Below, piece by piece: positions 2,405 through 26,616 of a stretch of DNA of 64,000 nt. A program made the translations under genes and the position numbers. Each line of letters begins with the position of its first letter. Within the stretch, counting starts at the first letter, position 1. The notes below the pieces were generated by a model, which ran no database searches, had not been told where the DNA came from, and saw only the letters and a program-made list of their open reading frames with translations. Source of the stretch: Bacteroidota bacterium. Lineage in GTDB: Bacteria > Bacteroidota > Bacteroidia > Flavobacteriales_D > Sanyastnellaceae. The stretch is from NCBI GenBank assembly GCA_002746975.1, contig NVXE01000004.1:70187-134186 (forward strand), in the 5' to 3' direction.

Positions 2405-2420
2405 ATTGGTTAAATGTTAA

Positions 2421-4585: not shown

Positions 4586-4589
4586 CTTG

Positions 4590-4597: not shown

Positions 4598-4614
4598 GAC
4601 TGCATAGGGTCTTT

Positions 4615-4651
4615 ATTTCCTATTTGTGTATTTAGGATTTAGATAGGAAAT
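4615..4651. repeat. 9-bp inverted repeat between creD and aspS
   Basis: ATTTCCTAT (4615-4623) and ATAGGAAAT (4643-4651) are a perfect inverted repeat with a 19-base spacer, located between the creD stop and the aspS promoter. There is no T-tract, so it is a weak terminator at best; an operator is equally possible. Confidence 0.35.
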
Positions 4652-4656
4652 AGAAT

Positions 4657-6009: not shown

Positions 6010-6039
6010 TCAAAAAATTAAACGCGTAAGAAATGAGAA

Positions 6040-6570: not shown

Positions 6571-6749
6571 AATAGCTTGCGTTTTTGTGTTTAACGTCGG
6601 GTAATAAGTTAACATTAATTATTGTCATATTTACCCGCCTCCCCACTTGATGTCAGTTACGAAAAAGCCACAACTTCCAGCGACATATTCTATACTAGGA
6701 AGTAATTTCATTCAAGAAGGAGGGAATATGACTGACGGGACATTCTGAT

Positions 6750-8051: not shown

Positions 8052-8053
8052 AA

Positions 8054-8851
8054 CTACAGGATCGTTTTTTCTTTTAGCAAGACACTGTTCTTCGATTTTT
8101 TTCTTTCGATAGAGTCATTTATAGCGTCCCAAAGCGCAATTCGCTTCTCCAATGATTGCTTAGCTACAGCTAATGTTTCGTTCCATTTTCCTAGGTCATT
8201 GCCACAAAGTTCGGTAACCATTTGAAGAGATAGTGGACCGTGCTCATCTCCGTCAAGCTCGATATGTCTCTCAAGATAGTATTTAAGCTTGCTACCGGAG
8301 TCAGATTTACTAAGTATTTCGATAAACATATCTGGAATAACATCCTCTCTGCCAAATGTAAAGGATGAAGCAATTAAGTGAGATTTACCAGTTTTGATAA
8401 TTGAAAATGAAAACATAACAAAGTCCGAAACTCGGTGATCTATATTTATTTCATCTAAAGCATATTCTATAGAATGGCCGGATTTAATAATTCGAATAAA
8501 ATCATTAATCTCATGTGTGTTTGCACTTGCTTGTGTCATAGCATCCAGATACATTTCAAAATGGCTTTTGGGCTCTCCCAATTCGTTAATGTCACTTTCT
8601 TCGCCGTGAACAATTTCATTTATAAATCTAGCAAGAGTTGGGTTGGATGAAGGCGTCCAGGGGATTTCAATATTTGTAAGTTTTATTTGTAGGCTCTTTA
8701 AAAGAGACATGAAATCCCAGACAGCAAACACATGATTTTCCATGAACGTTTTAATGTCATCTTCTGTTGTTAGATTTTTATAGAGATCATGACGTTGTAA
8801 TATATCCCTTAATTTAGATATTTCACTTTCGATATGCTGTATTTGATTCAT
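8054..8851 (-). CDS. DUF3050 family protein (heme-oxygenase-like fold)
   Basis: 265-residue soluble helical protein matching DUF3050, a family predicted to have a heme-oxygenase-like fold. Conserved-looking blocks are [28 protein letters not shown], and [15 protein letters not shown]; the scattered His/Glu pairs could hold a di-metal site as in heme-oxygenase-like oxidases. That last point is inference. It is immediately upstream of the APC permease (2-base gap), which suggests that its substrate or product is an amine or amino-acid derivative. No experimentally known function that I can cite. Confidence 0.8.
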
Positions 8852-8912
8852 TCTTTTGATTGCTAGTTATGAGTACTCCGATCAGACGTAAACGCAATTG
8901 AATACGAGATTG

Positions 8913-9863
8913 TTACTTATTCCAGTTTAGTATTACGTCTCCTATTTCTGACCCTATGACATTTAAAATAGATAGGTGATTTTGATCAGGAATTATTTTT
9001 GTGTTGCTTCTTTCGTCCTTACTTAATGGTAGGGAGGCATATTTAATTACCTTTTTTGGTTCAAATAATTCATCGTTCTCGCCTACAAATATTGCAACAG
9101 GTTGTGAAATGTTTTGAAACTGCTTCACGGGATTGTTTGGCGTTAAAGCCTTAGACATGTTTACGCTTATTGACCTGACAATTAAAGGGTTTCTGTCTAA
9201 AACGTTTTGAGGATAATTGAAATAAACTACATCAGAATGTTGCATTAATAATCCACATGACATCCCATTTAGCACAAACTTCCATATTTCCACCTTAGCA
9301 AAAGGAATCCTTTCCTCTCTTTCTGTATCTGATTTATATCCTAGTTCAGGTGATATAAATATATAGCCGGAAATATTTTCTTTCTTTTTCCATTGGCTAT
9401 AATTTAATACTAACCCACCTCCTGAGGAGTGGCCGCCTAAATAGATAGGTAAATTGCTGTCCCTTTTTACAAGTTGAATAATCTCGTTAATATCACGATA
9501 TAGACTATTTACTTTAGGACTATCTCCTCTTTTACCCCCCGACAATCCGTGTCCTCTTAGGTCAATTAAGATAGTTTCGATGGAATACTCTTCTCTTAGT
9601 GTTTGTGCTAATTGCAGATATCCGAGTTTACTATGTACTCCTCCGCCATGAATAAAAATTAACTTAGCAACTGGAGCTATTGTAGGCTTGAATTGATAAT
9701 ATTGGATTTTTGTTTTGTCATAACTTTCAATTGTATTCGAATTAAATTGGAAGTTGTCATTTCTACCTTGTATTTCAACAAATGAAAATGATGACGGTTT
9801 TTCTTGTGCAGAAGCACCCAAGCTTATTAAAAGGCTAATAAAAGCAATTAATTGAATTCTCAT
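8913..9863 (-). CDS. Secreted alpha/beta hydrolase, monoacylglycerol-lipase-like
   Basis: Signal peptide (residues 1-19, ending ASAQ) followed by a serine-hydrolase fold of the S33/Hydrolase_4 type. The oxyanion region is FIHGGGVHSK, the nucleophile elbow is GGHSSGGG, the Asp is in VGENDELF and the His in DQNHLSI. LIDLRGHGLSGGKRG is typical of lysophospholipases and monoacylglycerol lipases. It is exported to the periplasm or beyond. It lies 61 bases upstream of DUF3050 on the same strand and may share its transcript. Substrate unknown. Confidence 0.85.
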   Translation of the reverse strand: MRIQLIAFISLLISLGASAQEKPSSFSFVEIQGRNDNFQFNSNTIESYDKTKIQYYQFKPTIAPVAKLIFIHGGGVHSKLGYLQLAQTLREEYSIETILIDLRGHGLSGGKRGDSPKVNSLYRDINEIIQLVKRDSNLPIYLGGHSSGGGLVLNYSQWKKKENISGYIFISPELGYKSDTEREERIPFAKVEIWKFVLNGMSCGLLMQHSDVVYFNYPQNVLDRNPLIVRSISVNMSKALTPNNPVKQFQNISQPVAIFVGENDELFEPKKVIKYASLPLSKDERSNTKIIPDQNHLSILNVIGSEIGDVILNWNK

Positions 9864-9945
9864 TTGATTTTCAGTGATATTAGGTAGATAAAGTACAGCT
9901 TTCTACATGTTAGGAAGTCTGAAAGGATGTAAATTAAAACATCAT

Positions 9946-9953
9946 CAAAGATA
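9946..9953 (-). promoter_or_regulatory. Candidate -7 box TATCTTTG upstream of the hydrolase
   Basis: Consensus TAnnTTTG box on the minus strand 82 bases before the hydrolase start, in a 264-base gap that otherwise shows no gene. No good -33 TTTG; a TTTC lies at roughly the right distance. Unproven. Confidence 0.35.
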
Positions 9954-10127
9954 CTGGCTAAATAACGAGTACTACAGAAATTAAGTGGTGCGAATTACCT
10001 CACAGCGTTTCTAACAAGAACGTCCACAAGATCTTGTAATGTTGTTTTAAACCTACGGCTATGGTAGTCTTAATTTGTGGGTTTTTTCTTTGCTCAAATA
10101 AGACAAGCTAGAAAGCTTTTGATTAGT

Positions 10128-10667
10128 TCATTTGTCATTCTCCGACTTGTTTAAAAAAGCATCAAGTCTTTGCTTTTGTCTCAAATGATGTTTAAAGTGC
10201 AAAAGAATTAAACGGTACCACTCTTCTGCGTTCAAATAAGAAAATCCGGGGAGCAAAGTTTTGCCTTTTTTGTCAGTTTTAAATTTTTCAAGAGTCCTTT
10301 CCATTTCTTGCTTTACTTTTCGCAACCCCATCTTAATTTCATTAACGCTGTCCGGTTGCTTAGGCGTGTACTCTTCTGATGCTTGGATTTTTATTTTTAT
10401 AGGAGGGAATCCGTTTATAATAAAATAAGAAACAAAGGCCTGTAAATTTTTATTTTCCTTTTTATTTTCCGAAGATTTAAGGCATTGATTAACCTGTTGT
10501 AAATGAGATCTCAATGTCCCATCAATCAGGTGTTGGTATAGTTGTCCCATTGACCAACTCTCGGGCTTTTCCTTTCTCGTTAATTGATTAAAGTCGTAAT
10601 GATCTAACTCCGTTTCCCAAAAATCTAATATCGTAAGAAAGCGATTTAATGTCTTTTTATTGTTCAT
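10128..10667 (-). CDS. DinB-family protein
   Basis: 179-residue DinB-like four-helix protein. Motifs: WSMGQLYQHLIDGTLRSH at the N-terminal side and LLHFKHHLRQKQRL at the C-terminus, giving the usual spaced His residues of a DinB metal site. Related family members transfer bacillithiol or related thiols to electrophiles. I choose the ATG at 10667, since the 18 residues before it are basic and unlike the family. It follows the pirin gene after 25 bases, so probably one transcript with pirin and the permease upstream. Confidence 0.8.
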   Translation of the reverse strand: MNNKKTLNRFLTILDFWETELDHYDFNQLTRKEKPESWSMGQLYQHLIDGTLRSHLQQVNQCLKSSENKKENKNLQAFVSYFIINGFPPIKIKIQASEEYTPKQPDSVNEIKMGLRKVKQEMERTLEKFKTDKKGKTLLPGFSYLNAEEWYRLILLHFKHHLRQKQRLDAFLNKSENDK

Positions 10668-10692
10668 ATTTTGGCGAGCCTTTAAGAAATAT

Positions 10693-11412
10693 TTATCCTT
10701 CGTTATCGTAACCAGAATCAATAGGAGACTTTAAAATGAATAATTCACTTTTACTTTTGGCAATTAAATCGATTTTTGTAATTCCCGACACTTTAGTAAA
10801 ACTGTCTTTTCTCATATCACTTCCCATAATATTAATTTCTCCTTCCATTACGTATAATGAGTGAAAGCTGTTAGCATCAAGATTGAATGAATGCTGTCCT
10901 GCAGGAATTTTATATCGTTTTACTGAAATTCCAGATGCATCTGTTTGAATAGGAGAGCCTTTCCCAACATAAGATTTGACCTCTAATTCACCTTCTTTTA
11001 CCCAATTAAATAATTGAGCAGGATAATCTTTATAATATGGATTCTTTTTTAATGATTTACTATAGTCAGGATTAAACCAAATTTGAAATGCTCTAGATCC
11101 CTTTAAATATTTTTCTGAATGCTGTATCCCACTACCGGCTTTAATATGCTGTACCGCATCAGCGTTTAAAGGAGTCCAAGCATTACTAGCAGTATCAAAA
11201 TGTTCTAACCCGCCTTCAAAAACAAAGGTTAATATTTCAATCCCCTCATGTGGATGCATTGGGAAAGTACCCTCTTCAAGAGCTTCAACATTTGCCCAAT
11301 AAATAAGATTTGAATATAAAGGATCTCCTGCTATAGGTTTGTTCTCTAGAAGTCGTCCTCCAAATAATGAAACCTCTTTCTGCTGTTTTCTAGATTTAAT
11401 TTGTAATTTCAT
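10693..11412 (-). CDS. Pirin-family bicupin protein
   Basis: Pirin-like double cupin. The N-terminal cupin keeps the metal-binding set MHPHEGIEIL (two His), HFD and IQHSE. Bacterial pirins can act as quercetin dioxygenases or bind partner enzymes; the role here is unknown. The C-terminal cupin is less conserved, as is usual. I start at MKLQIK (11412); an ATG three codons earlier (11421) is possible. It lies in a run with an APC permease upstream and DinB downstream. Confidence 0.88.
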   Translation of the reverse strand: MKLQIKSRKQQKEVSLFGGRLLENKPIAGDPLYSNLIYWANVEALEEGTFPMHPHEGIEILTFVFEGGLEHFDTASNAWTPLNADAVQHIKAGSGIQHSEKYLKGSRAFQIWFNPDYSKSLKKNPYYKDYPAQLFNWVKEGELEVKSYVGKGSPIQTDASGISVKRYKIPAGQHSFNLDANSFHSLYVMEGEINIMGSDMRKDSFTKVSGITKIDLIAKSKSELFILKSPIDSGYDNEG

Positions 11413-11465
11413 TAAGTACATTTTTGTTAAAGGTATACCTAGTAAGCTCTATGTAGAACAAGTTT

Positions 11466-12785
11466 TTAATCGCCTTTTCCGAGATTCATTATTGATTTAT
11501 AATTCATTAAGAAATATAATATCGATAATACCCCGAAGAATAATCCGAGGGCAATAATTTTATTGCTTGATAGATTTGATAGAAACCAAATAATTACAAT
11601 TATTGAAAGTATCGGAACTAAAAGGCCGCCAGGTATTTTAAAGCAGTCATCTCTAGAATGTATCTTCTTACGCCTCCTTAATTTGATAGGGGCTATTGAC
11701 ATGCCTAATGCAATAATCAAAGTAGAAGCACTAGATAAAATAGCCAACTCCTGAAATCCTCCGAAGCACGAAAAGATAAAACAAAATGCTGAGAATACGA
11801 TTATGGATACATAGGGAGTCACGTATTTGCTATGAACCTTAGATAACAGCTTAATTGGGATAACATTATCTTTAGATGCTGCGAATAAGATCCTGGGTAT
11901 ACTCAAAATGAAGCTGCTAATTGTTCCAAACATAGAAACGGCTGCCCCTACGGTTAATAATCCAAACCCTACGGGTCCGAAAATCTGGTTTGCAACTTCA
12001 CCTAATGGATTTTCTATATAAGAAGGAAGCGAAGATCCCAAGACTCCCTGTGCAACCGTCTGAACTAATACATAGATTATCCCAACAATAAATACGCTAA
12101 AAAGAATTGCTCTAGGGATAGTACGTTGAGGATTTCGGACCTCGCCACTTACTGAAAGTGCTGAACCGGCACCAGTAAAAGCAAAGAATAAAATAAGAGA
12201 GGTCGTTCCGATTTCGTTTATAGAAGGGGTAATTTCCCACACTAAGTTTGAAATTTCAATATCTTTAAAGCCCCAAAACACGATCAATAAAAGAGGGGCT
12301 ATCTTAATAAAAGTAATAATCTTAACAAAGCCGACTCCCTTTTTAAGACCTATTACATTGATATATCCTAAACCGGAAAATAGAAGCAGAAAAAAGGATA
12401 TTCGAATTATCTCACTTTGAAGAAAAGGGAATAAGCGGAAGATTACAGAAATAACGGCATTTGCTACAGCACCTACTCCTGTTATAGATGCGAGCAACAT
12501 AATACATGCCGCTAAAAACCCAGCGTATTTGCCAAATGTTTTTTCAAAGTAAATATATACCCCGCCAGTCTCAGTTATTTTGCTCCCAACTTCTGCGAAA
12601 CACAACATAATCAAGGTTATTAATATCCCACAGAAAACGTATGCCAAAATACTGGCTGCGCCTAAGTCGGCTGCAACAATAGCAGGCAACACAAATATCC
12701 CTGAACCAATTACGATATTAATAATATTAGAGCTAAGCCCTAAAAAGCCAATTTCTCTTTTTAATTCACCTATTTTGTTACTCAT
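11466..12785 (-). CDS. APC-superfamily amino-acid permease
   Basis: 439-residue, about 12-helix amino-acid/polyamine/organocation transporter. The helix-1 motif is IVIGSGIFVLPAIVAADLG, and FFAFTGAGSALSVSGEVRNPQRTIPRA is the typical helix-6/loop region. It resembles the LAT/cationic amino-acid exchanger branch more than the permease at 6750, which has a different helix-1 sequence. Substrate not assignable. It lies 23 bases after the SCO gene, so it could be transcribed with the copper/nitrite genes, although no functional link is obvious. Confidence 0.88.
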   Translation of the reverse strand: MSNKIGELKREIGFLGLSSNIINIVIGSGIFVLPAIVAADLGAASILAYVFCGILITLIMLCFAEVGSKITETGGVYIYFEKTFGKYAGFLAACIMLLASITGVGAVANAVISVIFRLFPFLQSEIIRISFFLLLFSGLGYINVIGLKKGVGFVKIITFIKIAPLLLIVFWGFKDIEISNLVWEITPSINEIGTTSLILFFAFTGAGSALSVSGEVRNPQRTIPRAILFSVFIVGIIYVLVQTVAQGVLGSSLPSYIENPLGEVANQIFGPVGFGLLTVGAAVSMFGTISSFILSIPRILFAASKDNVIPIKLLSKVHSKYVTPYVSIIVFSAFCFIFSCFGGFQELAILSSASTLIIALGMSIAPIKLRRRKKIHSRDDCFKIPGGLLVPILSIIVIIWFLSNLSSNKIIALGLFFGVLSILYFLMNYKSIMNLGKGD

Positions 12786-12808
12786 AGACTTGACAATATG
12801 TGATGCGC

Positions 12809-13516
12809 TTATTCAACCAACTCTGTAATCTTAGAGGTTATGACATCATTATCAACCCCTAAGCCTTCTTGTTGGTAATATAGCACACCTTGCTCATCAA
12901 AGACACTTATTATATTAGAGTGAGAAAACAGGATAGGAGAAATTTGTTTGTACTTAACAGCTAATACGTTAGAGAATTCTCGGACATCCTCAACAGTCCC
13001 TTGCAAAAAGACCCATTGGTCATTATCCATTTTGTTTTCAATAGCATATTCTTTTAACCTTTCTGGAGTATCAGTATCAGGGTCTATACTTACGAATACG
13101 TATTTAACGGCACTACTGTTAACTTTATCGTGAATATTTCTAATATCAGCAACTAATCTTGGGCAGGCTGATTTACAAGTTGTATAAATCATTACCATTA
13201 CTAAGACATCGCCTTTAAGTTCTTTAAGCTCAATGGTTTTGTTATTTTGGGTATTCCATTTTGAGGTAAGATTGAAAATAGACTCCTCGGAGATGTAGTT
13301 TTCATCTGCATTTATCGTTTCAATAGTTGCATTTATGTTTTTTAAATCCATAGAACAAACTGGGCAGGTACCTTTTTGCTGATATGTTTTTTCTCCTTCG
13401 CATTTCATAGGGCATTGATATTCAGTTTTTGATTTATCAATAGCCCCATTATTACAAGAGTTGAATAAGAATAAAGCAGTAAGCAAAAAAAATGACAGGA
13501 GAATGTTTTTTTGCAT
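12809..13516 (-). CDS. SCO1/SenC copper-chaperone lipoprotein with heavy-metal-binding domain
   Basis: A lipoprotein signal (cysteine in LFLFNSC) is followed by a small heavy-metal-binding module with two CP motifs (CPMKCEG and CPVCSMDL), then a SCO/thioredoxin-fold domain. The SCO copper ligands are visible as TCKSACP (CxxxC) and a distal His in LFSHSNIISVF. SCO proteins deliver copper to copper sites in respiratory enzymes. Lying in the nirK cluster, it may load the copper nitrite reductase rather than cytochrome oxidase; that is inference. The ATG at 13516 is chosen because it puts a clean lipoprotein signal at the N-terminus; the frame is open to 13546, which would overlap nirV. Confidence 0.9.
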   Translation of the reverse strand: MQKNILLSFFLLTALFLFNSCNNGAIDKSKTEYQCPMKCEGEKTYQQKGTCPVCSMDLKNINATIETINADENYISEESIFNLTSKWNTQNNKTIELKELKGDVLVMVMIYTTCKSACPRLVADIRNIHDKVNSSAVKYVFVSIDPDTDTPERLKEYAIENKMDNDQWVFLQGTVEDVREFSNVLAVKYKQISPILFSHSNIISVFDEQGVLYYQQEGLGVDNDVITSKITELVE

Positions 13517-13530
13517 AATATTCAGTTTTA

Positions 13531-14292
13531 TTAATCTTTTGCACACCTAAAGCCTAAATTTAAAATACAGTAATTTGCTTTAACACTGCTCCTAAATGCA
13601 TACCTCATAAAAGCCGCATAATTCATTAAATCAGAAGCCCCAACACTAGCTCCAGCACAAAATAGTTGTCCATCGGCATTTTTGCTATTACGAGACTCTC
13701 CCGAAATAATAACAGAATTGAAATCGCTAGTCCATTCCCATATCAAGCCATGCATATCCCAAACCCCCCAATAATTTCTGAAAGTACTTCCGACAGAACG
13801 CCTGTATGTCTTTGGACTTTCATATCCAGAAGTAATTTTTTGGTTAAAAAGACTGTCTTTTTGAGCATTCCTATCAGTTTGATTTGCCATAGCCACATAT
13901 TCCCACTCATTCATCGTAGGCAGTCTTTTACCCTGACATCTACAATAGGCTTTCGCAGAAAACCAAGAAACCGACGTAACGGGGGATAGAGGGTTCACAA
14001 GATTACCCAAAGTGGTGTCATTTTCCCATTGAGATAAATAACTAGCTTCAGCAAATAGCTTAATCACTTTAGACTTTTTCCACTTAGGATTTTTCTGCAC
14101 AAAATCTAAATACTGCTGATTTGTCACAGGATATGTATCTAGTAAAAAATCATCAACCACAACACTAATTGTATCAGAACCGTATAAAGGAATAAACTCC
14201 CCCTTTCTGATTTCTTCCATAGGAACTTGCACTTGACTAAAGCAAACCACTTGAGCTAAAAAACATATTGTAAAAAATTGAAGTTTAATCAT
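13531..14292 (-). CDS. nirV: NirV-like SUMF1/FGE-family protein
   Basis: Signal peptide (about 1-19, VVCFSQ) and a formylglycine-generating-enzyme-type fold: FLLDTYPVTNQQYLDFV, then PVTSVSWFSAKAYCRCQGKRLPT, then IWEWTSDF, and the C-terminal NLGFRCAKD. The LFCAGASVGASD...NYAAFMRYAFRSS stretch matches my memory of NirV proteins, which accompany copper nitrite reductase genes. True FGEs use two active-site Cys that bind copper; here the first (FC) is kept, while the second position appears lost. So formylglycine synthesis is unlikely and a structural or copper role is possible. It lies 9 bases after the porin stop. Confidence 0.82.
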   Translation of the reverse strand: MIKLQFFTICFLAQVVCFSQVQVPMEEIRKGEFIPLYGSDTISVVVDDFLLDTYPVTNQQYLDFVQKNPKWKKSKVIKLFAEASYLSQWENDTTLGNLVNPLSPVTSVSWFSAKAYCRCQGKRLPTMNEWEYVAMANQTDRNAQKDSLFNQKITSGYESPKTYRRSVGSTFRNYWGVWDMHGLIWEWTSDFNSVIISGESRNSKNADGQLFCAGASVGASDLMNYAAFMRYAFRSSVKANYCILNLGFRCAKD

Positions 14293-14301
14293 TTTTTACA
14301 G

Positions 14302-15747
14302 CTACTCGTTTTGAGATAAAAAATCGGGTTTAATGATAATCATTAACCATCCCCAATTATTATTTTGGCTAACCCTTCCCTGCCCCTCATAGTTTACCAC
14401 ACCCTTAACATACGCGAGTGTTTCTGTCGCAAGCATTACGGAATAACCAGCCTTAAGTACAACACCTTTTGAGATGTCAGTGCCAAATGTGAAATCGAAT
14501 TCAGTGCCAAAATATGATGGCATAGTTTGCAACTGATCCACGCCTGAGATGTTGCCTATTGTTGCTAAAGCTATTTGATTTTCCTGATCAATCTTAAATC
14601 CGTCTAACACCTCATTCGCCGCAGAAAAAGCATGAACGTCTAGGCCATACCAATAATTATCCTTTTTGTGTTTTAATTTCATATATACATCACGAAGTCC
14701 TACGTTTCCAACGTGGTTTCCAACATAGAAATAATCCATAAAGCCATTAAACTTATGATTCGTACCATACAAAGGGGTGAAGGAATGTGTCTTAGTTCTA
14801 TAACTATATGAGGTATCTGCCAAACTTTGTCCGCTTAAATATTCATATCCGATAGTAGATGTAAGATGATCAGTAATGTTATATGATACATCACCACTAA
14901 AATTTATTGCCGAAATATGCTTATCGTAGTCTCCGTTAATATCGGTGAAGACTTGAGTTCTATCTCCTAATATTCCAGTTTGGTAATAAAAGGAAGCATT
15001 TGAGGACACCTTACCTTTTGTATAAACCAAACGCGTACCCATAGTCTGACTGTACTTGTCGTTATAGGTAATATCTGTTGGCTGATTATTTATTCTGACA
15101 GAATCTAATTGTTCTTTCCCATTATTTAAAAATAGCAGACTCACGTTAAAATTATCATTAAACTTATTGTGTATCCAGAAATATTGAAATGATTTATAGT
15201 TCCCTTTCGATGCCGTTGTATTTTCTAAAGCAGCTTTGTCTTGATTGTATGCTCCAGCAATTTGAAATTGGAGATTTCCCTTATTGTAAATAAACATCGC
15301 AGCATCATGGCTTCTAGCTTGTTGAGCCCAGTTTACATTTCCAAAAATCCTACTATCATCTAAAATAATTTCCTGACGTCCGAATTTAAAGGAAAGATAC
15401 TTATTCAAAAAGGCTTCTCCCCAAGCTTCATGTAGGCTTAGATAGGCCCCATTTGGATTAATTCCGGAATACGTACTGATTAATTGCGGTTGGCTACCCC
15501 ATACATGTATGTCTTGAAGAGACATTTTAACTCTGTAGCCGTCAGCTTTATATCCAAAATTTAATCTAGTTCTCTGTTGTACAAATGCGGCAGGGTTTTG
15601 AGCAGAATCGGTTACGCTTTTATATCCATGTCTGTACTCAAAACGAGGTCGTAGCTCTCCAGTTATTGAGAGTTGAGCTATAATGGAATTATTAATAATT
15701 AAAAGTCCAAATAAGCTAAAAATTAGTTTGGTTATATTCTTCCTCAT
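14302..15747 (-). CDS. Outer-membrane beta-barrel porin, alginate-export family
   Basis: 481 residues with a signal peptide (ends IIAQ) and an alternating amphipathic beta pattern throughout, beginning SITGELRPRFEYRHGY as in alginate_exp-type porins. FGRQEIILDDSRIFGNVNWAQQARSHDA is the conserved block of that family. It sits between nirK and nirV in a tight minus-strand run, a layout seen around nirK in Bacteroidota. It may admit nitrite or release a product. It is not evidence of alginate export, since no alginate genes are near. Confidence 0.82.
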   Translation of the reverse strand: MRKNITKLIFSLFGLLIINNSIIAQLSITGELRPRFEYRHGYKSVTDSAQNPAAFVQQRTRLNFGYKADGYRVKMSLQDIHVWGSQPQLISTYSGINPNGAYLSLHEAWGEAFLNKYLSFKFGRQEIILDDSRIFGNVNWAQQARSHDAAMFIYNKGNLQFQIAGAYNQDKAALENTTASKGNYKSFQYFWIHNKFNDNFNVSLLFLNNGKEQLDSVRINNQPTDITYNDKYSQTMGTRLVYTKGKVSSNASFYYQTGILGDRTQVFTDINGDYDKHISAINFSGDVSYNITDHLTSTIGYEYLSGQSLADTSYSYRTKTHSFTPLYGTNHKFNGFMDYFYVGNHVGNVGLRDVYMKLKHKKDNYWYGLDVHAFSAANEVLDGFKIDQENQIALATIGNISGVDQLQTMPSYFGTEFDFTFGTDISKGVVLKAGYSVMLATETLAYVKGVVNYEGQGRVSQNNNWGWLMIIIKPDFLSQNE

Positions 15748-15796
15748 GGTAATTTGAATTTATAAGGATTCTAGTTAAACACATCGAGACTTATTT

Positions 15797-17233
15797 TTAC
15801 TGGTTTTTAACTTCAGCAACCATACTAGGAGTTATTTCAGATTTATTATTCCCCCAATTGTTATAAACGTAGGTAAGAACATTTGCGACTTCCTCATTTG
15901 TTAATACTTGGGCAGGCATTACACCGTTGAATGATTTACCATTAACAGTAAACGGACCGGTTTTTCCGTTAAGAACAACATCAATTGCACGATTAACATC
16001 TGCATTTAAGAAATCGGAACCAGAAAGAGGAGGGAAAGCACTTGGTATTCCTTGTCCATTTTGTTGATGGCAAGCGATACAGGTTTTAAGGTAAACTTGT
16101 TTTCCTAAAGTAATTCTATCATCTTTAGATGCAGCGATTGAAGCTTTCGGAGCAGGATTAGTAACCTGAATTGCCCCCCCCTCAGGATGGTAAACCCCTT
16201 CTTCTATTTTACCTTTAAATAGCTTTTCATCTTCTTTTCCCTGTACTTTCAACATACCTAAAGCACCTTTGTTGAATGCTCTAAAAATCGAATGGTCTAC
16301 TAATAAAAAAGTGCCGGGCACTTCTACCTTCAACTCTACCATGGCTGCTCCTCCAGCTGGAATCAAAGTGGTTTGGACATCGTGATTAACTAAAGACCCC
16401 GCCTCAACGTTAACGTTATCAAAATGTTCTCCAATTATATGGAAAGAAGAAATTAAGTTAGGCCCGATGTTTCCCATAAAAATCCTAACGGTTTCGCCTA
16501 CGTTAGCAGTAAGAGCGTTATCTCCGACTAAAGCACCAACTTTACCGTTAAAAACAACATAATCAGGGTTTTCAGCAATTGCTTTTTCCATACTAAAAGG
16601 TTGTAATCCAGGCTGTCCATTTTTACCTTTTGTATAGAACTCACTTTGCATTACATAGTACTCTCTGTCCACTTCAGGCAAACCTCCTTCTGGTTCAACT
16701 AATATTAAACCGTACATACCATTTGCAATATGCATTCCTACTGGTGCAGTTGCGCAGTGATAAATGTATAATCCTGGATGTAATGTTTTAAATTCAAAAG
16801 TAACTTCATGTCCAGGCGCCACGAGCGATGATTTGGCTCCTCCACCTGTTCCCGTTACAGCATGCATGTCAATATTGTGTGCAAGCTTATTATTAGGGTT
16901 GTTTTTTAAGGTGACCTTAACCTCATCGCCAACTCTTGTTCTAATAAACTTTCCTGGAACTTGTCCTCCGAAAGTCCAGTAGACATATTTCACACCGTCT
17001 GCTAGCTCTCCTTCTTTCTCAAGAATTTCAAGACTGACTTCTACGACTTTTGCTCTACGATCTCCGACTGGAGGAGGAACATTAGGAGCGTCTGTAAGCT
17101 CGGCTGTAATCCTTCCATGAATCATAATTTGTGTTGGGTCAACAGGTTTCTTTTCTTCTTCAGTTCCATTAATGGAACAAGCGGTAAGTAAAACGATACT
17201 TGACAGAGCTAAAATACTAATTGATTTTTTCAT
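15797..17233 (-). CDS. nirK: Copper nitrite reductase (AniA type) with C-terminal cytochrome c
   Basis: Reduces nitrite to NO. The lipobox LLTAC (Cys 19) predicts a lipoprotein. Two cupredoxin domains follow. Ligands are all visible: HNIDMH (type 1 His, catalytic Asp, type 2 His; about 118-123), YHC (type 2 His, type 1 Cys; about 158-160), then APVGMHIANGM (type 1 His and Met), the catalytic SSFH, and LVDHSIF (type 2 His). The CATAPVGMH spacing matches Neisseria AniA (class II). After about residue 365 comes a class I cytochrome c with CIACH and a distal Met in GVMPAQ. The fused haem domain should hand electrons to the copper site. It lies 112 bases after copA and heads the porin-nirV-SCO run. 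Confidence 0.95.
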   Translation of the reverse strand: MKKSISILALSSIVLLTACSINGTEEEKKPVDPTQIMIHGRITAELTDAPNVPPPVGDRRAKVVEVSLEILEKEGELADGVKYVYWTFGGQVPGKFIRTRVGDEVKVTLKNNPNNKLAHNIDMHAVTGTGGGAKSSLVAPGHEVTFEFKTLHPGLYIYHCATAPVGMHIANGMYGLILVEPEGGLPEVDREYYVMQSEFYTKGKNGQPGLQPFSMEKAIAENPDYVVFNGKVGALVGDNALTANVGETVRIFMGNIGPNLISSFHIIGEHFDNVNVEAGSLVNHDVQTTLIPAGGAAMVELKVEVPGTFLLVDHSIFRAFNKGALGMLKVQGKEDEKLFKGKIEEGVYHPEGGAIQVTNPAPKASIAASKDDRITLGKQVYLKTCIACHQQNGQGIPSAFPPLSGSDFLNADVNRAIDVVLNGKTGPFTVNGKSFNGVMPAQVLTNEEVANVLTYVYNNWGNNKSEITPSMVAEVKNQ

Positions 17234-17345
17234 GATTTAACATTCAATTATTTAATAACTTACAAAGGCCGCGCGGTTAAGCGTTTGTTACAAGCAAGTT
17301 ACGATATAATCGAGATTAACATCCTGTTTTAGGCAACTATTTTTA

Positions 17346-19829
17346 TTATTTATTCAAATCTATATTTCTTAATCGTAAAGAGTTTCCAATAACAGAAACA
17401 GAACTAAAACTCATCGTTGCTGCTGCTATCATAGGGGATAATAATAGCCCGAAAAAAGGATATAATAAACCTGCGGCTATAGGTACTCCAAGTACATTAT
17501 ATATAAAGGCAAAGAACAAGTTTTGTTTTATATTTCTCATAACCGATTTGCCCAGGTTTATAGACTTTACAATACCCATCAAATCGCCTTTTACAAGCGT
17601 CACTTCACTGCTTTCAATTGCAACATCTGTTCCCGTACCCATTGCAATACCAATATCTGCTTGTGCTAACGCAGGAGCGTCATTAATTCCATCACCTGCC
17701 ATCGCGACGACTTTGCCCTCGGATTGTAATTTTTTAATGACTTCTAATTTATCTTCAGGTAAACATTCTGCTTGAAAAGAAGCCAAATTCAATTGATCTG
17801 CTACTGATTTTGCTGTTCTTGTATTATCACCAGTCAACATAATTACCTCAATTCCTTCTTCCTGCAAGCGCGCGATAGCGTTTTTACTGGTTTCTTTTAT
17901 GGCGTCAGTAATAGTAACATAACCCAATACACTTTCATTAACCGCAATAAAAGAAACGGTCTTTCCTAGTTTCTGTTCTTCAACTACCATGTCATCAATT
18001 TCTTTAGAAATGGATGCTTTAACTTGTTCCATTAACTTTTTGTTACCCAGTGTAATTTTTTTGTCGTCAACAGTTCCAATAACACCTTTTCCCATAACGG
18101 CTTCGAAATTTTGTGTGTCTTTAATTTCCAACCCTTTTTCTTTACCGTAATTAACAATTGCCTCAGCTAAAGGATGTTCGCTATGCTGGTTTATTGAGGC
18201 GATATATACCAACAGTTCTTTATCAAATTTACCAGAAGCATTAACTACTTTTTCTACAGATGGTTTTCCTTCTGTAATAGTTCCAGTTTTATCAGTAATT
18301 AAAACATCTACTTTATTTAGATTTTCTAACGCTTCAGCATTTTTTATTAAAACGCCATTTTGAGCACCTTTTCCAACACCTACCATTACTGCCATAGGTG
18401 TTGCTAAACCCAAGGCACACGGACAGGCAATTATAAGTACGGCGATGGCATTAACAAAGGCATATACCAATGCTGGTTCAGGCCCAAAAATCTTCCAAAC
18501 AATAAAAGTTATTATAGAAATTAGTATAACTATTGGCACAAAATATGTAGAAATTTTATCAGCCAATTTTTGAACGGGAGCACGACTTCTACTTGCGTTA
18601 TTTACCATTTGAATGATTTGCGATAGAAGGGTTTCAGACCCAACTTTTTCTGCAGACATAACAAAAGATTTGTTACCATTAATGGTTCCTGAACTAACTA
18701 AATCACCCACTTTTTTATCCACAGGTATGGGCTCACCTGTTATCATGGACTCATCTACATTACTGTGTCCATCAGTAATTATCCCATCAACTGGAATTTT
18801 ATCACCTGGTTTTACACGTAACAAGTCACCTTTCTTAATTGAGTGAATAGGTACCACCTTATCACCGTCAGGTGTTACCAAAACAGCTTCACTTGGTGCT
18901 AATTTCAGTAATTCTTTAATTGCTCCACTAGTTTGGCTATGTGCTCTAGCTTCTAATAATTGACCAAGTAAAACCAAAGTCAATATTACGGTAACGGCTT
19001 CAAAATAGACGAATACTGTTCCGCTTTCGGTTTTAAATTGCTGAGGGAATACATCAGGAAAAAGTAAAGCAAAGACACTAAATAGAAAGGCAACACCGGC
19101 ACCTATTCCTATTAAAGTAAACATATTCAAATTCCACGTTTTTATGGATGTATATGCGCGTTCAAAAAACATCCACGTTGCGTAGAACACAACAGGTATA
19201 GATAATGCAAACTGAATCCAATTCCACGTTAATTGATCAAATACTTTAGCTAAAGGATTGCCAGGGATTAATTCCCCCATAGCAAGAATGAATATAGGAA
19301 CCGTAAATAAAATTGCTATTTTAATTTTTTTAAGCAACTTCTGATAGGTTTTATCTTCTTCGCTTTCGGTGGGCTCCATAGGGATTAAATCCATTCCACA
19401 TATAGGACAAGCACCTCTTTCATCACGAATGATTTCTGGGTGCATAGGGCAGGTATATTGAAAAGCTGCTTGTAGTCTAGGCTGTTCGACCAAATCCATT
19501 CCACAAACCGGACAATTACCAGATTTATCATAAGTTTTTTCACCCTCACAATGCATAGGACAATAAAATGTGCCGTTTCCCTCTACAGGCTTTTTTGCTT
19601 CAGAATGTTTCTCATGACCAGGCATTTCAATGGTATAATGTAAACCCGCTTTAAGTAAAGTCTCCTGCAATTTATCTAATGAAATATGCGAAGTCATCTC
19701 TAAAGTAACCTCGTTCTTTTTAAGGTCGGCTTCTACTTTTGTAATAGCATTTAAACTACCCAAAGCAGACTCTACATTGGTTTTACAACCATTGCAAGTC
19801 ATTCCGGTGATTTTGTATGTATGTTTCAT
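17346..19829 (-). CDS. copA: Copper-exporting P1B-type ATPase
   Basis: 827-residue P-type ATPase pumping Cu(I) out of the cytosol. Order: HMA domain with MTCNGC (Cys 12, Cys 15), two heavy-metal-binding modules ([15 protein letters not shown] about 89-112; [14 protein letters not shown] about 126-147), eight membrane segments, the intramembrane CPC in [11 protein letters not shown] (about 467), the phosphorylation loop DKTGT (about 510), and hinge [12 protein letters not shown]. It precedes nirK on the same strand by 112 bases. Co-location with a copper enzyme and SCO suggests it keeps copper balance or supplies periplasmic copper for NirK. Regulation not visible; no CueR or CsoR gene is near. 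Confidence 0.96.
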
Positions 19830-20263
19830 AGTTTGCCTTCAAGAATATGTACTAGTTATTTCGTTAAATGTAGTAATAAGGTAAAGTTATGGCTATTTTT
19901 AATATGCGAATTATTTATAATATCAGATATAACACTATAGATTTAGTATAAATAGTTAAGCCAAAAGATGACGCTTAAATATATCCAGAGCCCAATAAAT
20001 AATATATGTACTGTTGTTTCAAATGTTTTTCCTTTCCACAACTTTGTAGAATATCCAAATAGTTGAATTATGTATGTAAGACACTTACTCTCCTAAATTG
20101 TCATTATACCTCACACTAACAAAGTATATTTATAATAACAATTATGTCAATAACAGCACTTAATAAATCAATGTGTTAAGTAACGCTATGAGTATTAGCC
20201 TTTTCAGCCATTCAAGGCGATAAAAATAATTCACATAAAAACTTGTAATTTAACTATTTTTTG
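19830..20263. other. Gene-free gap between copA and the IS remnant
   Basis: AT-rich stretch of about 430 bases. The only coding-like content is the short minus-strand fragment at 19943-20092 (listed separately). No consensus TAnnTTTG box was found close to the copA start, and no tRNA or terminator was recognised. Confidence 0.5.
19943..20092 (-). pseudogene. Orphan C-terminal fragment of a membrane protein
   Basis: The minus strand is open for 49 residues between two stops, with no ATG start. It reads YIIQLFGYSTKLWKGKTF followed by a hydrophobic helix and ends WLNYLY. The amphipathic start plus single helix look like a protein end and not random sequence. Family not recognised. It may be a gene truncated by rearrangement near the IS element, or a small protein with a non-standard start. 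Confidence 0.25.
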
Positions 20264-21226
20264 ATCGGATTAACGGGTTAAAGACCACAACGTAAATAGA
20301 TTACGCTCAAGATAGGTTGATTTGTAGTATTAAAGCAACACTACAATGAAAAAGACATTACTTTGAACACGTTTTTAAGAGAGTTCCACAGCGAACGACC
20401 ATGCCTTGAGTTACTGATTGACCAAAAGTGGTAGGCTGGATTTACTTGTTGGAGATGTTCTCACAAGAAATTTGTAAAAGACAAAAAATGGCATCACAAG
20501 CGATGCGCAGGCTGTAAGTATGACGAGTCTGCTACAGCTCACACATTATTTCATAAACTCAAATTTCCTATAGAATCTGCAGTTACGATCGTTTACATTT
20601 TAAGCACAGTTAAGAAGGTAATGAGCTCTTGTGAGATAGCTAGGCAGTCTAATATTCATCAAGAAACCGCCTGGTTTTTCAAGAGGATAGCTCAAGAGGC
20701 AATGAGCATCTCACCAATTAGAAAACTCAAGGATAATGTTGAGGCTGATGAAACTTTTATGGGTGACTTTGAACCCGGAAAACCTGGACGTAGCAAGGGT
20801 AAGAAGCGAGCTGTTGAGATATGCATTGAGGTTGATTACTCAGACCCTAAATCAAAAACAGGAAAGATAAAATAGAGGGTGCATTAGATAAGATGGTGGA
20901 GCATGGTTCTGTGTTAACGACAGATGGTTGGAGAGGGGAGGGTATGGGTCTGCAGCGCACAATCACTGGCATGATGTGGCGGACTGTAACAATGGTGAGA
21001 ATTTTAAACTCCTTCATTGGCATATTTTCAACTTGAAGAATTGGCTGCGTGGAATACATCATCATGTATCAGGATCACACTTGCAATCTTACCTTCACGA
21101 ATTTAATTATCGCTTTAACAGAAGAAATCATGGAAACAGGATTGTGTACGGGCTACTATCTGTGATGTGTTCAATGTCAGAAATGCAGTATTCAAGCCTT
21201 ATAGCACTTTAACCCGTTAATCCGAT
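20264..21226 (+). mobile_element. Decayed IS1595-type (ISXO2-like) element with intact 20-bp terminal inverted repeats
   Basis: ATCGGATTAACGGGTTAAAG at 20264-20283 is the exact reverse complement of 21207-21226, giving a 963-base element. Inside lies a broken transposase gene. Eight-base target duplications typical of the family are not evident; both flanks share only TTTTG, which is weak in AT-rich DNA. The ends are perfect while the gene is dead, so it could still be moved by a related transposase. Confidence 0.85.
20346..21212 (+). pseudogene. IS1595-family transposase, multiply disrupted
   Basis: Stitching frames gives a recognisable transposase: an early frameshift after MKKT, an in-frame TAG after DQKW, a zinc ribbon (CWRC ... 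CAGC), the first catalytic Asp in EADETFMGD, a second in LTTDGWRG, and the C-terminal HLQSYLHEFNYRFNRR of ISXO2-like proteins. A stop and apparent deletion near 20875, and a second frameshift near 20937, break the middle. At least four lesions make it nonfunctional. The two longest surviving frames are 20621-20875 and 20928-21212. Confidence 0.85.
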
Positions 21227-21263
21227 TTTGTTTATTATTCTATGAGTTCTTATTTCTTAAAGT

Positions 21264-21518
21264 TCAAATAAGTTTTTTGGGTATTGCATGAAACCCTGTT
21301 ATTTGAACCTTGTCTTCGATATCGTTAATTTTCACTAATGCGGATGTGTAAATAGTTAATTCAATAGGAAACACGTCATGATTAATTTTCACGTCTTTAA
21401 TCCCTTTTAGGGATAAAATTCTATTCTTAATTCTTTCCAAATCTGATTGTTCTCTTGCATTTGTACTAAATATTTTTCCTAAATCTCCTGGTATTACATT
21501 TTCGGATAATAAGCTCAT
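21264..21518 (-). CDS. Small HMA-fold-like protein lacking the metal-binding cysteines
   Basis: 84 residues with the beta-alpha-beta pattern of heavy-metal-associated domains: RIKNRILSLKGIKDVKINHD followed by a strand rich in hydrophobics. The CxxC metal motif is absent; there is no Cys at all. Comparable short proteins occur beside copper ATPases in Bacteroidota. The IS remnant now separates it from copA on the same strand. It might regulate or bind partners rather than metal; function unknown. Gene status is supported by a clean frame and sensible protein, not by a strong ribosome site. Confidence 0.55.
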   Translation of the reverse strand: MSLLSENVIPGDLGKIFSTNAREQSDLERIKNRILSLKGIKDVKINHDVFPIELTIYTSALVKINDIEDKVQITGFHAIPKKLI

Positions 21519-21919
21519 TATATTTTTGTTGATTTAATCGTTAATAATGCACGATGATTTGTATGACTCACTAGAATATCATTGATTTAACTATCTACGC
21601 TAAAGTTACCTTTTTTCAGTTAAAAGTTCGCACTTAAACTGTTCAAATTAATCTTTACTTATTTTGCCTGACCTTGAATCTAAGTATATTTAGGGTTGTA
21701 GGACTGTTATTTCCCAATCATTATTGACTAATTCATATAACGTTCTTTCGTGAAGCCTACTTCTTTTAAGGAAACAAATATTGAATTTGGGTAACCATCC
21801 AAACCTATCGTTGAGAAACAACACGCACCAGGTATATTAAACCATTTTTCAAATAGTAGTAAAGGGTCATTTTCTATAGGGTTTTCTTATATTTTGTATT
21901 GAGCAACCCGTTTATGTTT
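21519..21919. other. Gap of about 400 bases with one gene fragment
   Basis: Between the HMA-like gene and the lipoprotein gene. It contains the pyridoxamine-oxidase fragment at 21728-21886; the remaining AT-rich sequence shows no gene, tRNA or convincing promoter. Confidence 0.5.
21728..21886 (-). pseudogene. Fragment of a pyridoxamine 5'-phosphate oxidase-like protein
   Basis: Open for 52 residues between an in-frame TAA and TAG on the minus strand, without a start codon. It contains DPLLLFEKWF and STIGLDGYPNSIFVSLKEV, matching the N-terminal FMN-binding half of PNPOx proteins (the ATVDEDGRPSSRIVLLK block). The rest of the enzyme, including its FMN-binding C-terminal half, is missing. It is a remnant, and it lies 0.5 kb from the decayed IS, consistent with local erosion. 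Confidence 0.5.
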
Positions 21920-22402
21920 CTATTCTCGGATTAATACTTTTCGCATAGTTTCATTGTTTCCATTCTCAAAATATCGAATCAGAATCGTATCAATATTTAA
22001 TGTATTAGCATTGTGTAATTCGATATCTAAAGTGCCGTTATTTAAGTTTGTAAATGTTTGTCTGTTATCATAAAATGAAGAAACGGTACAGTTTTGTTCA
22101 TTTTCATAAAACCATACTTCTCCACTTATGAGCATTAGTTCAATTTTCAAAGAACTACCTTCTAGTATTGTCGCTCTCATAGAACTGTTTTCTTCATTTA
22201 ATATTAAAGTATCAACTCCAAATAAAATATTTGTTCCATAGGCTCCTATCTCTGGATATTCAATAGCACAAGCAACGCAGGTTCCCCCACAATCAATTTC
22301 AACTTCATCTTGATTTTTTAGGCCATCATTACATGTTTCGGAAGTTCCCTTATTACAACTGGCTAAGACCAACAAGATTAGTATTAGGTTTAAATAGTTC
22401 AT
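21920..22402 (-). CDS. Lipoprotein with DCGGxCxxC cysteine motif
   Basis: 160 residues. The lipoprotein signal ends LVLASC (Cys 16). Directly after comes CNDGLKNQDEVEIDCGG followed by TCVAC, a Cys-rich module common in Bacteroidota surface lipoproteins. The rest looks beta-rich and gives no recognised domain. Likely anchored to the outer membrane, function unknown. No neighbour on the same strand is close enough to imply an operon (DUF6090 gene begins 78 bases upstream of its start region). Confidence 0.65.
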   Translation of the reverse strand: MNYLNLILILLVLASCNKGTSETCNDGLKNQDEVEIDCGGTCVACAIEYPEIGAYGTNILFGVDTLILNEENSSMRATILEGSSLKIELMLISGEVWFYENEQNCTVSSFYDNRQTFTNLNNGTLDIELHNANTLNIDTILIRYFENGNNETMRKVLIRE

Positions 22403-22479
22403 TTCGTTAGTACACGTTTTTTAAAAAGTTTAAAGTTAAATGTGCTCTATTCAATTTTCAATAAATATTATAGGGTATT

Positions 22480-23205
22480 TCATTTCTGCTTATCTGGTTT
22501 TGTTAATTCAATAATTCTATCTAGGCAAAACTCCAATGTTTCATATTGCCCATCATTCAAAATATTTTCAAGCGTCCCCCTTCTTAAATAAAGAAGATAT
22601 TCCAATTCAAGCGATTCCAAAATAGATAAGTCATATCTATGATCTTTGAAATTGAAATTAAAATCTAATTTCCCTATCATTAACTCGTCGAAATTAGTGT
22701 ATATCACCGTTCTGCTTATTAGTTCATCTTCTTGGTAATCAAGTAGAAGGTCTTGCCAAGACATTAAGAGTTTACGCAATTCATCATTTCTAATAATATC
22801 GATTGAAGAAGAATTTATTAAGCCAACAATTGAACTTTGAGAAGGATTAAAAGTCCAAGATTGTGTGATATTTTCAAGATGTTTTGCAATAGTATCTAAG
22901 TTATTTTTTTCTATATCTATAGGAAACATAGAAATTAAATTATCGCAACCCTTTAGAGCTAGTTTATGGTAAAAGGCAACAGAGTCTAATTGAGTTTTGT
23001 TTATTGTAAACTCATTGTGAATTGCACTCAATATGGTTTTTTCTTTTCTTTGATTCTTACGAATGTCATTCCAATTATTAATTTGTAGCGCGATTAAAAT
23101 TCCTATAACTACCAGAATAATTTCTCCGGCAGCATACTTAAGATACTTGCCAGCTTTATTTCCCCCCACAAGGTCGTAACGTATTCGTCTAAAGAATTTT
23201 ATCAT
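22480..23205 (-). CDS. DUF6090 family membrane protein
   Basis: 241 residues. The N-terminus MIKFFRRIRYDLVGGNKAGKY then a membrane helix (EIILVVIGILIALQINNW) is the hallmark of DUF6090 proteins, which are abundant and often multicopy in Flavobacteria. The remainder is a soluble helical domain predicted outside the cytoplasm. Function unknown. It is divergent from the XRE gene at 23488 across a 282-base gap. Confidence 0.8.
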   Translation of the reverse strand: MIKFFRRIRYDLVGGNKAGKYLKYAAGEIILVVIGILIALQINNWNDIRKNQRKEKTILSAIHNEFTINKTQLDSVAFYHKLALKGCDNLISMFPIDIEKNNLDTIAKHLENITQSWTFNPSQSSIVGLINSSSIDIIRNDELRKLLMSWQDLLLDYQEDELISRTVIYTNFDELMIGKLDFNFNFKDHRYDLSILESLELEYLLYLRRGTLENILNDGQYETLEFCLDRIIELTKPDKQK

Positions 23206-23487
23206 TCGTTGTTTTTTGTATAATGAAGCACAACCGTGTCGATATGATAAGTTGTGGTTTAAGCACCTAATTTAGCAATTATAAGTCGAATGTAAAATCA
23301 ACGGGGATTTTCGAAAGGATGATAATTGCAATCAATTATTTATGTAACTTGTATCAAGTTGCTGTTTTATTTAGGAGTGTTAGATTGCTGTCTATAAGCT
23401 GTCACAATACTGTCGTATCAATGTCGAATTCTAATGAAGGCTTATAATTACCTTTGCTCATTAGGCAATATTAAAACCTCAAGAAGA

Positions 23488-23946
23488 ATGAATCTTAATA
23501 CGATTAATATAAGGGATATTAAAAAAATGAGATTAGAACGTCATTGGTCACAAGATCAACTAGCAGATATGAGTAAATTAAGTATAAGAACTATTCAACG
23601 AATTGAAAATGGAGAAAATCCTGGTTTAGAATCATTAAAATCTTTGGCAGCCGTTTTCGAAATTAATATTGCAGGTTCTGATAAGACAGAAGAAGAAGAA
23701 CAGATTAAAAAAGAAGAAGAGTACGTTCAATATCTTAAAGGTTTTTATAAACTTCTTGCAGTTGCTATTTTAAGCCTGATTGTTCCATTTGTTCTTGCAG
23801 TAAGTGGCTCAACTAATTGGATCTTGTTTTTATTGATACTACTTTCTTGGGGAGTATTGTTAGGAGTATATTCTCTAAATGTTTTTGACTTATTTGGAGA
23901 GAAATGGAGAAGAAGAATGATTAATAAGAAATTTAAAAAGAACTAA
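23488..23946 (+). CDS. Membrane-anchored XRE-type HTH regulator
   Basis: 152 residues from the ATG at 23488, preceded by an AAGAAGA purine run; the frame extends back to 23434. The N-terminal HTH_3 helix-turn-helix is WSQDQLADMSKLSIRTIQRIE. A charged linker (EEEEQIKKEEE) is followed by two membrane helices (VAILSLIVPFVLAV and ILFLLILLSWGVLL). The DNA-binding domain would thus be tethered to the membrane. Targets are unknown; the divergent DUF6090 gene is an obvious candidate. Confidence 0.8.
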   Translation: MNLNTINIRDIKKMRLERHWSQDQLADMSKLSIRTIQRIENGENPGLESLKSLAAVFEINIAGSDKTEEEEQIKKEEEYVQYLKGFYKLLAVAILSLIVPFVLAVSGSTNWILFLLILLSWGVLLGVYSLNVFDLFGEKWRRRMINKKFKKN

Positions 23947-24047
23947 TGGTTTAATTAACCAAAACGGTTTGAAGATGGTGCACTTGGCATTTTGAAACCC
24001 TTTATTCTAAATTTAGTATTAATTTTATTGCTACGATTTTCGTGTTT

Positions 24048-24731
24048 TTATTCTTTTGAATTAACTTCCTTATGCTGTCTCAGTAATTGAGGTAAGCCTT
24101 TAAGAAATTCATATAATGCTCTCACCCCACCAATAAGTAATGTTCTTACAGCGGTATACAAAGGAGGTTTGACAACACCATAATAATCCTTGTATACAAC
24201 CTTATCAGGATCCAGTAATACCTTTTTCAAAGCATCAATGTTCGTCCAGTTTGCCCTAAACTTGACAACCCCATCTTTGCCAATTACATAAGTCATGTTT
24301 GGCATGCTTCCATATAATTTATGGGCAAACCCATCGATTGTGTCTACTAAGACTTCCCTCTTTTCATTGTAAAGCTTACTTGTAGATTTTGCATTATCCA
24401 TTTTCTCAACAAAACTTGTTATTTGTTTTGTTCTCTGTCCTGGGTGGGCTTCTCTAACATATAAAAGTAAAAAATGGACGTTAGGGTATTGCTGTTTTAA
24501 CAAATTCATGGGTTCTGTTGTGTTCGCATACATAGGACATGTAATGCTACCTGTATCTAGAACTACTGTTTTGTCTAAATAATCGGATAACATAACGGTT
24601 TTCCCATCTAAAGTTTTGGCCTCAAAGTCAATATAATTATCTCCAGCTTTTGGTCCATGGAACTTTGTGAAGTTATAATCTGAGGGGTTAAAATGCTTAT
24701 AATTATATATAGAAGTATTCTCTTTTTTCAT
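24048..24731 (-). CDS. Deiodinase-like thioredoxin-fold protein
   Basis: 227 residues. DTGSITCPMYA, then LLLYVREAHPG, then VLVDTIDGFAHKLYGSMPNMTYVI match the pattern of iodothyronine-deiodinase-family proteins, where the catalytic selenocysteine sits in a GSCTUPPF context; here Cys occupies that position (TCP). The N-terminus has no signal peptide; a C-terminal helix region (TLLIGGVRALYEFLKGLPQLL) may associate with membrane. Bacterial members have unknown substrates and could be peroxiredoxin-like reductases or dehalogenases. A near-consensus box TATCTTTA lies 16 bases before the start. Confidence 0.7.
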   Translation of the reverse strand: MKKENTSIYNYKHFNPSDYNFTKFHGPKAGDNYIDFEAKTLDGKTVMLSDYLDKTVVLDTGSITCPMYANTTEPMNLLKQQYPNVHFLLLYVREAHPGQRTKQITSFVEKMDNAKSTSKLYNEKREVLVDTIDGFAHKLYGSMPNMTYVIGKDGVVKFRANWTNIDALKKVLLDPDKVVYKDYYGVVKPPLYTAVRTLLIGGVRALYEFLKGLPQLLRQHKEVNSKE

Positions 24732-24974
24732 GATTTGTTATTAATCGTAAAGATACTTTATGAAGCGATCTTTAGATTGTTATTTTTTTAGGGGAGTTTA
24801 AAGTTTTACTATATTCTTTTTTTAAATGGATTTCAAAAAACAAGAATTTACTTATAAATATTGAGTGTTTAAACTATATCTATGTTGTATTAGTTTTCGG
24901 TGGTATTGTAGTAATTTTATTTTTTTACTTATGTCACGGATGAAGTTATAACCTTACACTTATTTCCTATGCAG

Positions 24975-24982
24975 TAAATTCG
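24975..24982 (+). promoter_or_regulatory. -7-like box TAAATTCG, 4 nt from the carboxylase start
   Basis: TAnnTTCG variant followed by CCGT and the ATG at 24987. The spacing is identical to that at aspS, secA and others, which supports the start and a leaderless transcript. Confidence 0.55.
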
Positions 24983-24986
24983 CCGT

Positions 24987-26555: not shown

Positions 26556-26616
26556 TCTTGTCCTAGCAATAGGTTTGGCCTAAAGAATTAGACTCAATAA
26601 AAGTCTACTGGATAAT

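Follow-up and report, generated by a model that had tools for sequence, protein, structure and literature searches.

The gene at 24048-24731 of the window (the whole 64,000-nucleotide stretch that was analysed) encodes a Cys-form protein of the T4_deiodinase type (PF00837). We put at about one in two the probability that this protein is a horizontally acquired, cytoplasmic one-Cys redox enzyme at the inner membrane, with a lipophilic hydroperoxide as its likely substrate and an external thiol as its reductant. The features discussed are as follows.

24048..24731, minus strand: deiodinase-like protein gene, an ORF with an ATG start, 227 aa and a single Cys
24534..24542, minus strand: T64-C65-P66, at the selenocysteine (Sec) position of animal deiodinases; C65 codon TGT at 24537-24539
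24438..24461, minus strand: Y91-V-R-E94-A-H96-P-G98 block, residues 91-98, the counterpart of the animal EAHP block and aligned with DIO
24282..24353, minus strand: V127LVD...G134..H137..YG...PN..YVI150 block, residues 127-150, aligned with a DIO3 stretch; H137 and P144 invariant in the bacterial set
24054..24164, minus strand: C-terminal two-helix amphipathic tail, residues 190-226, from the model and the hydrophobic moment; candidate membrane-surface contact
4600..24955: AT-rich variable region, flanked by genes that by eye resemble those for an aspartate-tRNA ligase and an acyl-CoA carboxylase
23434..23946: convergent neighbour encoding an HTH-2TM domain fusion

The ORF encodes a thioredoxin-fold protein, and the TCP, YVREAHPG and VLVD...YG...YVI motifs listed in the original prediction are all present exactly as claimed. 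The predicted replacement of Sec by Cys was likewise correct, since the codon of C65 is TGT and the residue is therefore an ordinary Cys rather than a TGA-encoded Sec. Both T64 and C65 were invariant in all 19 family members and align with the TCP of 4tr3 and 9h48, which are both Sec-to-Cys mutants. No selA was found in the window's genome (95% complete), in a search whose control set matched 4 of 14 genomes including E. coli and scored above the cut-off in one. The dN/dS ratio was 0.10 to 0.13 in the three of ten comparisons with unsaturated synonymous sites, the other seven being saturated and not computable; by these ratios the gene is under purifying selection. No full Bacteroidetes-type promoter was found before the gene. 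A promoter scan gave 9 promoter-like sites against 5.1 expected, and the terminator scan found no terminator.

The family was assigned first by profile searches. The Pfam T4_deiodinase model matched the window protein with 31 bits (gathering cut-off, 27; E, 2e-7), and in the scan of its own genome this was the single match, at 30.5 bits. The AhpC-TSA model narrowly passed as well (27.5 bits; cut-off, 26; E, 3.3e-6), with a weaker E-value, so that the better match was to the deiodinase model and not to AhpC. When 19 members were scanned at E <= 0.01, T4_deiodinase matched all of them, AhpC-TSA matched 17, and Redoxin matched 8. The best NCBIfam match was deiodinase_rel (NF038285) at 72.7 bits, under its curated cut-off of 250; model positions 173-324 of 347 correspond to residues 24-160, and the N-terminal half of the model is unmatched. 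A single-sequence search of the PDB gave DIO2 first (2.1e-6) and DIO3 second (3.2e-4), while the profile of the 19-member family gave DIO3 (7.1e-15), DIO2 (1.2e-13), and next ResA (6.5e-9).

The AlphaFold2 model, computed from 18 sequences, had a mean pLDDT of 88.1 and a pTM of 0.87. In VIA-align it aligned best to 9h48 (DIO2; Z 18.0, rmsd 2.5, 154 residues aligned) and then to 4tr3 (DIO3; Z 17.1, rmsd 2.9, 157 aligned), followed by a DsbE-type protein (Z 15.8) with other thioredoxin-fold proteins close below, these comparisons barely covering the protein past residue 177. The claim of a deiodinase pattern was borne out by the Pfam score, the PDB profile search and this fold alignment. When ordered by Foldseek E-value, the list was led by ResA chains, with DIO3 at rank 9 and DIO2 at rank 10.

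The same data bear on whether the protein is a plain AhpC/BCP-like peroxiredoxin or a TlpA/ResA-like thiol oxidoreductase that merely resembles deiodinases. These families belong to the same thioredoxin superfamily, the single reactive Cys is as in 1-Cys peroxiredoxins, and the AhpC-TSA score over its cut-off, the Foldseek order and the small step in Z to other thioredoxin-fold proteins all speak for such a reading; both families nevertheless rank under DIO2 and DIO3 by profile and by Z. The PxxxT/SxxC active-site motif of AhpC/TSA proteins is not matched: S62 occupies the T/S place, but Pro never occurs at position 58, where 18 of the 19 members have Leu and the other has Ile. Nor is the CxxC of ResA, as the window protein has CPMY and none of the 19 members has CxxC, which argues against a ResA-type dithiol exchange. 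The deiodinase_rel model matched all 19 members, compared with 3 for the ResA model, and the EAHP block, which is not known from AhpC/TSA and TlpA/ResA proteins, is kept. This alternative is deemed quite unlikely.

The conservation pattern locates the likely active site. Invariant columns in 18 sequences include G61, S62, T64, C65, P66, R93, E94, A95, H96, P97, K110, D130, G134, H137, P144, N145 and W162. With the Mycolicibacterium plasmid protein added, S62, T64, C65, R93, E94, H96 and H137 were invariant in 19 of 19, and Y91 was present in 16. The proton relay described around Sec130 of Dio2 consists of Ser127, Thr129, Tyr157, Glu160, His162 and His182 (PMC11592359). Five of these six residues are represented in the window protein, by S62, T64, Y91, E94 and H96, and C65 takes the place of Sec130. 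The sixth, His182, aligns with I104, and His occurs there in only one of the 19 members, the distant L043. The window protein is thus like animal DIO2 and DIO3 (9h48 and 4tr3) in its thioredoxin fold, GSxT-C/U-P and Y..EAHP motifs and five relay residues, and these two are its top matches by profile and by Z; it differs from them in having Cys rather than Sec, a short loop-D and no His at the place of Dio2 His182. Relative to the bacterial profile, the loop-D stretch is longer by 9 residues in DIO3 and by 12 in DIO2, and R93 and H137 are unmatched in both aligned DIO sequences.

A single cysteine was found in the window protein, in 10 of the 11 close members (for L041, in the domain only) and in 14 of the 19 members overall. 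Since there is no second cysteine, oxidised C65 would need an external thiol. For animal deiodinases, re-reduction has been proposed to proceed through a Prx-like cascade within the molecule (PMC11592359), and a single-Cys protein cannot use such a cascade in the same way. Because of the short loop-D, the missing relay His and the single cysteine, the protein is, as judged from its sequence, deiodinase-like by descent and not an iodothyronine deiodinase.

Two further groups of deiodinase-like sequences stood out. In six proteins of one family of the class (f20, genus g39; L006, L010, L011, L013, L018 and L024), the Cys/Sec position holds Asp or Asn, in the motifs GSITDPP, GSITNPP, GSISNPP and GSLTNPP, so that they have no catalytic chalcogen; ELHPG...YG..PN is retained. 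Three others (L007, L008 and L023) are deiodinase-like proteins of about 450 to 470 aa with GSYTCPVFR or GSYTCPIFR plus EAHP, and by eye they appear to be exported and to have a C-terminal sorting-type domain.

The model ends in two helices at residues 191-200 and 203-226. The tail has a hydrophobic moment of 0.72 at residues 202-219, with a modest hydrophobicity (KD19, 1.0). It occurs in all 11 close members, with KD19 values of 1.0 to 1.7, and seven of the eight distant members have instead a strongly hydrophobic, transmembrane-like C-terminal stretch (KD19, 2.08 to 3.27), L043 being the exception. From the hydrophobic ends of the distant members and the amphipathic tails of the close group, we infer that the family associates with membranes through its C terminus, presumably in a peripheral version in the close group. 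Animal deiodinases are anchored at the N terminus, in contrast to the hydrophobic or amphipathic C-terminal part of this family. Alternatively, the amphipathic tail could mediate dimerisation.

The proposed mechanism combines these elements. The amphipathic C-terminal helices would hold the cytoplasmic enzyme at the surface of the inner membrane, and C65 would be activated by the hydrogen-bond and proton network of the retained Ser62, Thr64, Tyr91, Glu94 and His96. The activated C65 would then attack a lipophilic substrate at an electrophilic atom. A hydroperoxide is the most probable target, a halogen or another leaving group a possible one, and the oxidised Cys would afterwards be reduced by an external thiol. 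On these sequence features, a peroxide substrate is possible, and so is dehalogenation.

The deiodinase-like gene is the last gene at the right-hand end of the variable region, because homology with genus mates restarts just past it, at about 24956-24970 and shortly ahead of the carboxylase-like gene (24987), and the AT-rich interval lies on its other side. The G+C content of the measured interval genes was 0.30 to 0.39 (0.345 for the deiodinase-like gene), compared with 0.44 to 0.48 for six flanking genes. When 20000-26600 was queried, a match was obtained in 13 of the genus's 14 genomes, the window's own among them; left of the restart point, the other genus genomes gave only two short matches, at window 20264-20417 in G013 and over 56 bases in G001. 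In the genus mate G005, a single contig carries two blocks that match window 1427-4599 and 24969-26555, and about 7.9 kb of other DNA lies between them, compared with 20.4 kb in the window. The right block is also found in G009, together with a 50-base match at 4548-4597 and other DNA between the two. One 0.76-kb piece (8115-8864, 70%) is common to the region and G011, and the region is therefore described as variable and not as wholly absent from kin.

Because the deiodinase-like gene converges with its HTH/2TM neighbour and diverges from the carboxylase-like gene, it is probably transcribed alone. Farther genes of the region include pirin and a copper-linked cluster at 12809-19829 that comprises SCO1, a heavy-metal P-type ATPase and a Cu-oxidase/cytochrome c fusion that by eye resembles a nitrite reductase. 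Also inside the variable region, at 20621-21212, are two short ORFs that by eye resemble pieces of an IS1595-type transposase.

No match was found in the 13 other genomes of the genus (61 to 97% complete) or in the 11 other genomes of the family that were searched. At the order level, 2 of 15 genomes had weak matches (30 to 32%), to proteins of about 515 aa; at the class level, 57 of 395 genomes matched at E <= 0.001, with a close match only in the window genome and in G299 (72%). A genome-wide pattern scan, one of whose two patterns requires a Cys codon so that Sec relatives could escape it, gave 16 loci, nine of them close (65 to 81% by best segment) and seven distant (30 to 34%). The nine close loci are from Tamlana (three), Aquimarina, one Bacteroidetes MAG, Sulfurovum MAGs (two), a Sulfurimonadaceae MAG and a Campylobacterota MAG. 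The phylum of G434 gave one match in 298 sampled genomes, which was the search centre itself, and Tamlana's family (searched around G431) gave five matches in 397 genomes, two of them full-length, including the centre. The ten close relatives, at 67 to 80% identity to the window protein, are thus patchy in Flavobacteriaceae and Campylobacterota.

Genes in four Campylobacterota genomes are 67 to 69% identical to that of the window, and this, together with the absence from nearly all sampled kin on both sides, suggests that the window gene was probably acquired by horizontal transfer. The tree does not settle whether transfer occurred between phyla, as most forks within the close group are poorly supported and single clades were not rejected for Campylobacterota (p-AU, 0.5) or Bacteroidota (p-AU, 0.465). 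A first reading in which the Campylobacterota copies were split was dropped on that value of 0.5. A single clade of the three Tamlana copies was rejected (p-AU, 0.03), this group having been named after inspection of the tree. The first tree was made without the G1026 copy, whose protein has the same sequence as the one from L035.

Other origins and forms were considered. No phage or viral origin was indicated, with no matches in 50,697 phage records and a negative pattern scan of viral contigs. Plasmid carriage was limited to a 31% identical relative on a Mycolicibacterium plasmid, annotated as deiodinase-like, and a 25% TlpA-type match. For a Sec form, genome searches reading through stops in the few groups sampled gave no homologue with an in-frame stop among the matches listed, a sampling that leaves Sec relatives possible.

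There was no general gene neighbour among the relatives' loci, where ten neighbouring proteins were scanned with Pfam and the rest judged by eye. No conserved operon emerged: a carboxylase gene is close by in two loci only, the window and L034, and this was treated as chance. The same view was taken of pirin-like genes, which occur around L034 and L046 and, in the window, at a distance of 13 kb. A cyclic-nucleotide-binding (Crp-type) gene, present in L036 and L039, was the sole neighbour to recur directly upstream, in two of the nine close loci. A DoxX gene adjoins L034, and genes of the carboxymuconolactone-decarboxylase (CMD) type and for glutaredoxin adjoin the Mycolicibacterium plasmid copy. 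At L041:7173-8627, on one contig of a Campylobacterota MAG, a UbiE-type SAM methyltransferase runs in frame into the deiodinase-like domain to give a 484-aa ORF; genes for CMD, thioredoxin-like and MarR proteins lie nearby. The context in relatives is redox-flavoured and lends the redox reading slight support.

A single invariant Cys in an isolated gene whose neighbours shift between loci could also suit a thiol-based protein with a sensing, chaperone or repair role instead of an enzyme acting on a small substrate. Such a role was considered very unlikely, given that the catalytic hydrogen-bond set, needless for a simple sensor, is mostly invariant.

The halogenated aromatics that had been proposed as substrates correspond to a different reaction, in which the protein would be a reductive dehalogenase of natural compounds of this kind, C65 accepting the halogen as an X+ equivalent, in the way that Sec accepts iodine in the animal enzymes, and a thiol then removing it. 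This is favoured by the descent and core active site common to DIO2 and DIO3 and by the named close relatives, which include marine-type genera and MAGs. In its favour as well, a dimeric Dio3 construct with Cys in place of Sec continued to form rT3, although this swap is stated to cut Dio activity about 1000-fold (PMC11592359). The gene is, however, rare in Tamlana's family, and inspection of the neighbouring ORF lists by eye revealed nothing recognisable as a dehalogenation gene. In the proposal of the same source, loop-D contains the Asp that contacts iodine and a conserved Trp (PMC11592359), and it is in this stretch that DIO3 and DIO2 have 9 and 12 residues more than the bacterial profile. 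The short bacterial loop-D therefore makes a halogenated-ring substrate less likely. The proposal was found to be unsupported, and dehalogenation as the main activity is considered unlikely.

Bacterial Sec and Cys deiodinase-like proteins from the Sargasso Sea were reported in 2005, with a possible redox function suggested (PMC1088965). The window protein shares with them the PF00837 family, a bacterial source, the Cys form and the suggested redox function, and since both forms were reported at that time it adds to an already known kind. The bacterial Sec form is listed as UxxC (PMC9312934, PMC13188914), and by these descriptions it is set apart from the window protein, which has CPMY, no second Cys and an amphipathic C-terminal tail. 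A selenoprotein fused to an EF-hand domain has also been noted (PMC9402790). The original statement that bacterial homologues have no known substrate agrees with these open-access sources, in which no tested activity is given.

By sequence comparison, the window protein belongs to a sparsely distributed subgroup with a distinct anatomy, marked by the amphipathic tail. More speculatively, and in our estimation rather improbably, there may be a mobile, membrane-tethered one-Cys deiodinase-type family, distinct from the UxxC selenoproteins, that acts on lipid-soluble substrates of the inner membrane; the L041 fusion would then hint that the substrate undergoes methylation as well as reduction and is, for example, a quinone-like or halogenated aromatic compound. 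The substrate of the bacterial deiodinase-like proteins bears on the origin of the animal deiodinases. With a small, natural Cys-type member having a single cysteine in named strains (Tamlana and Aquimarina), this question becomes approachable without selenoprotein expression.
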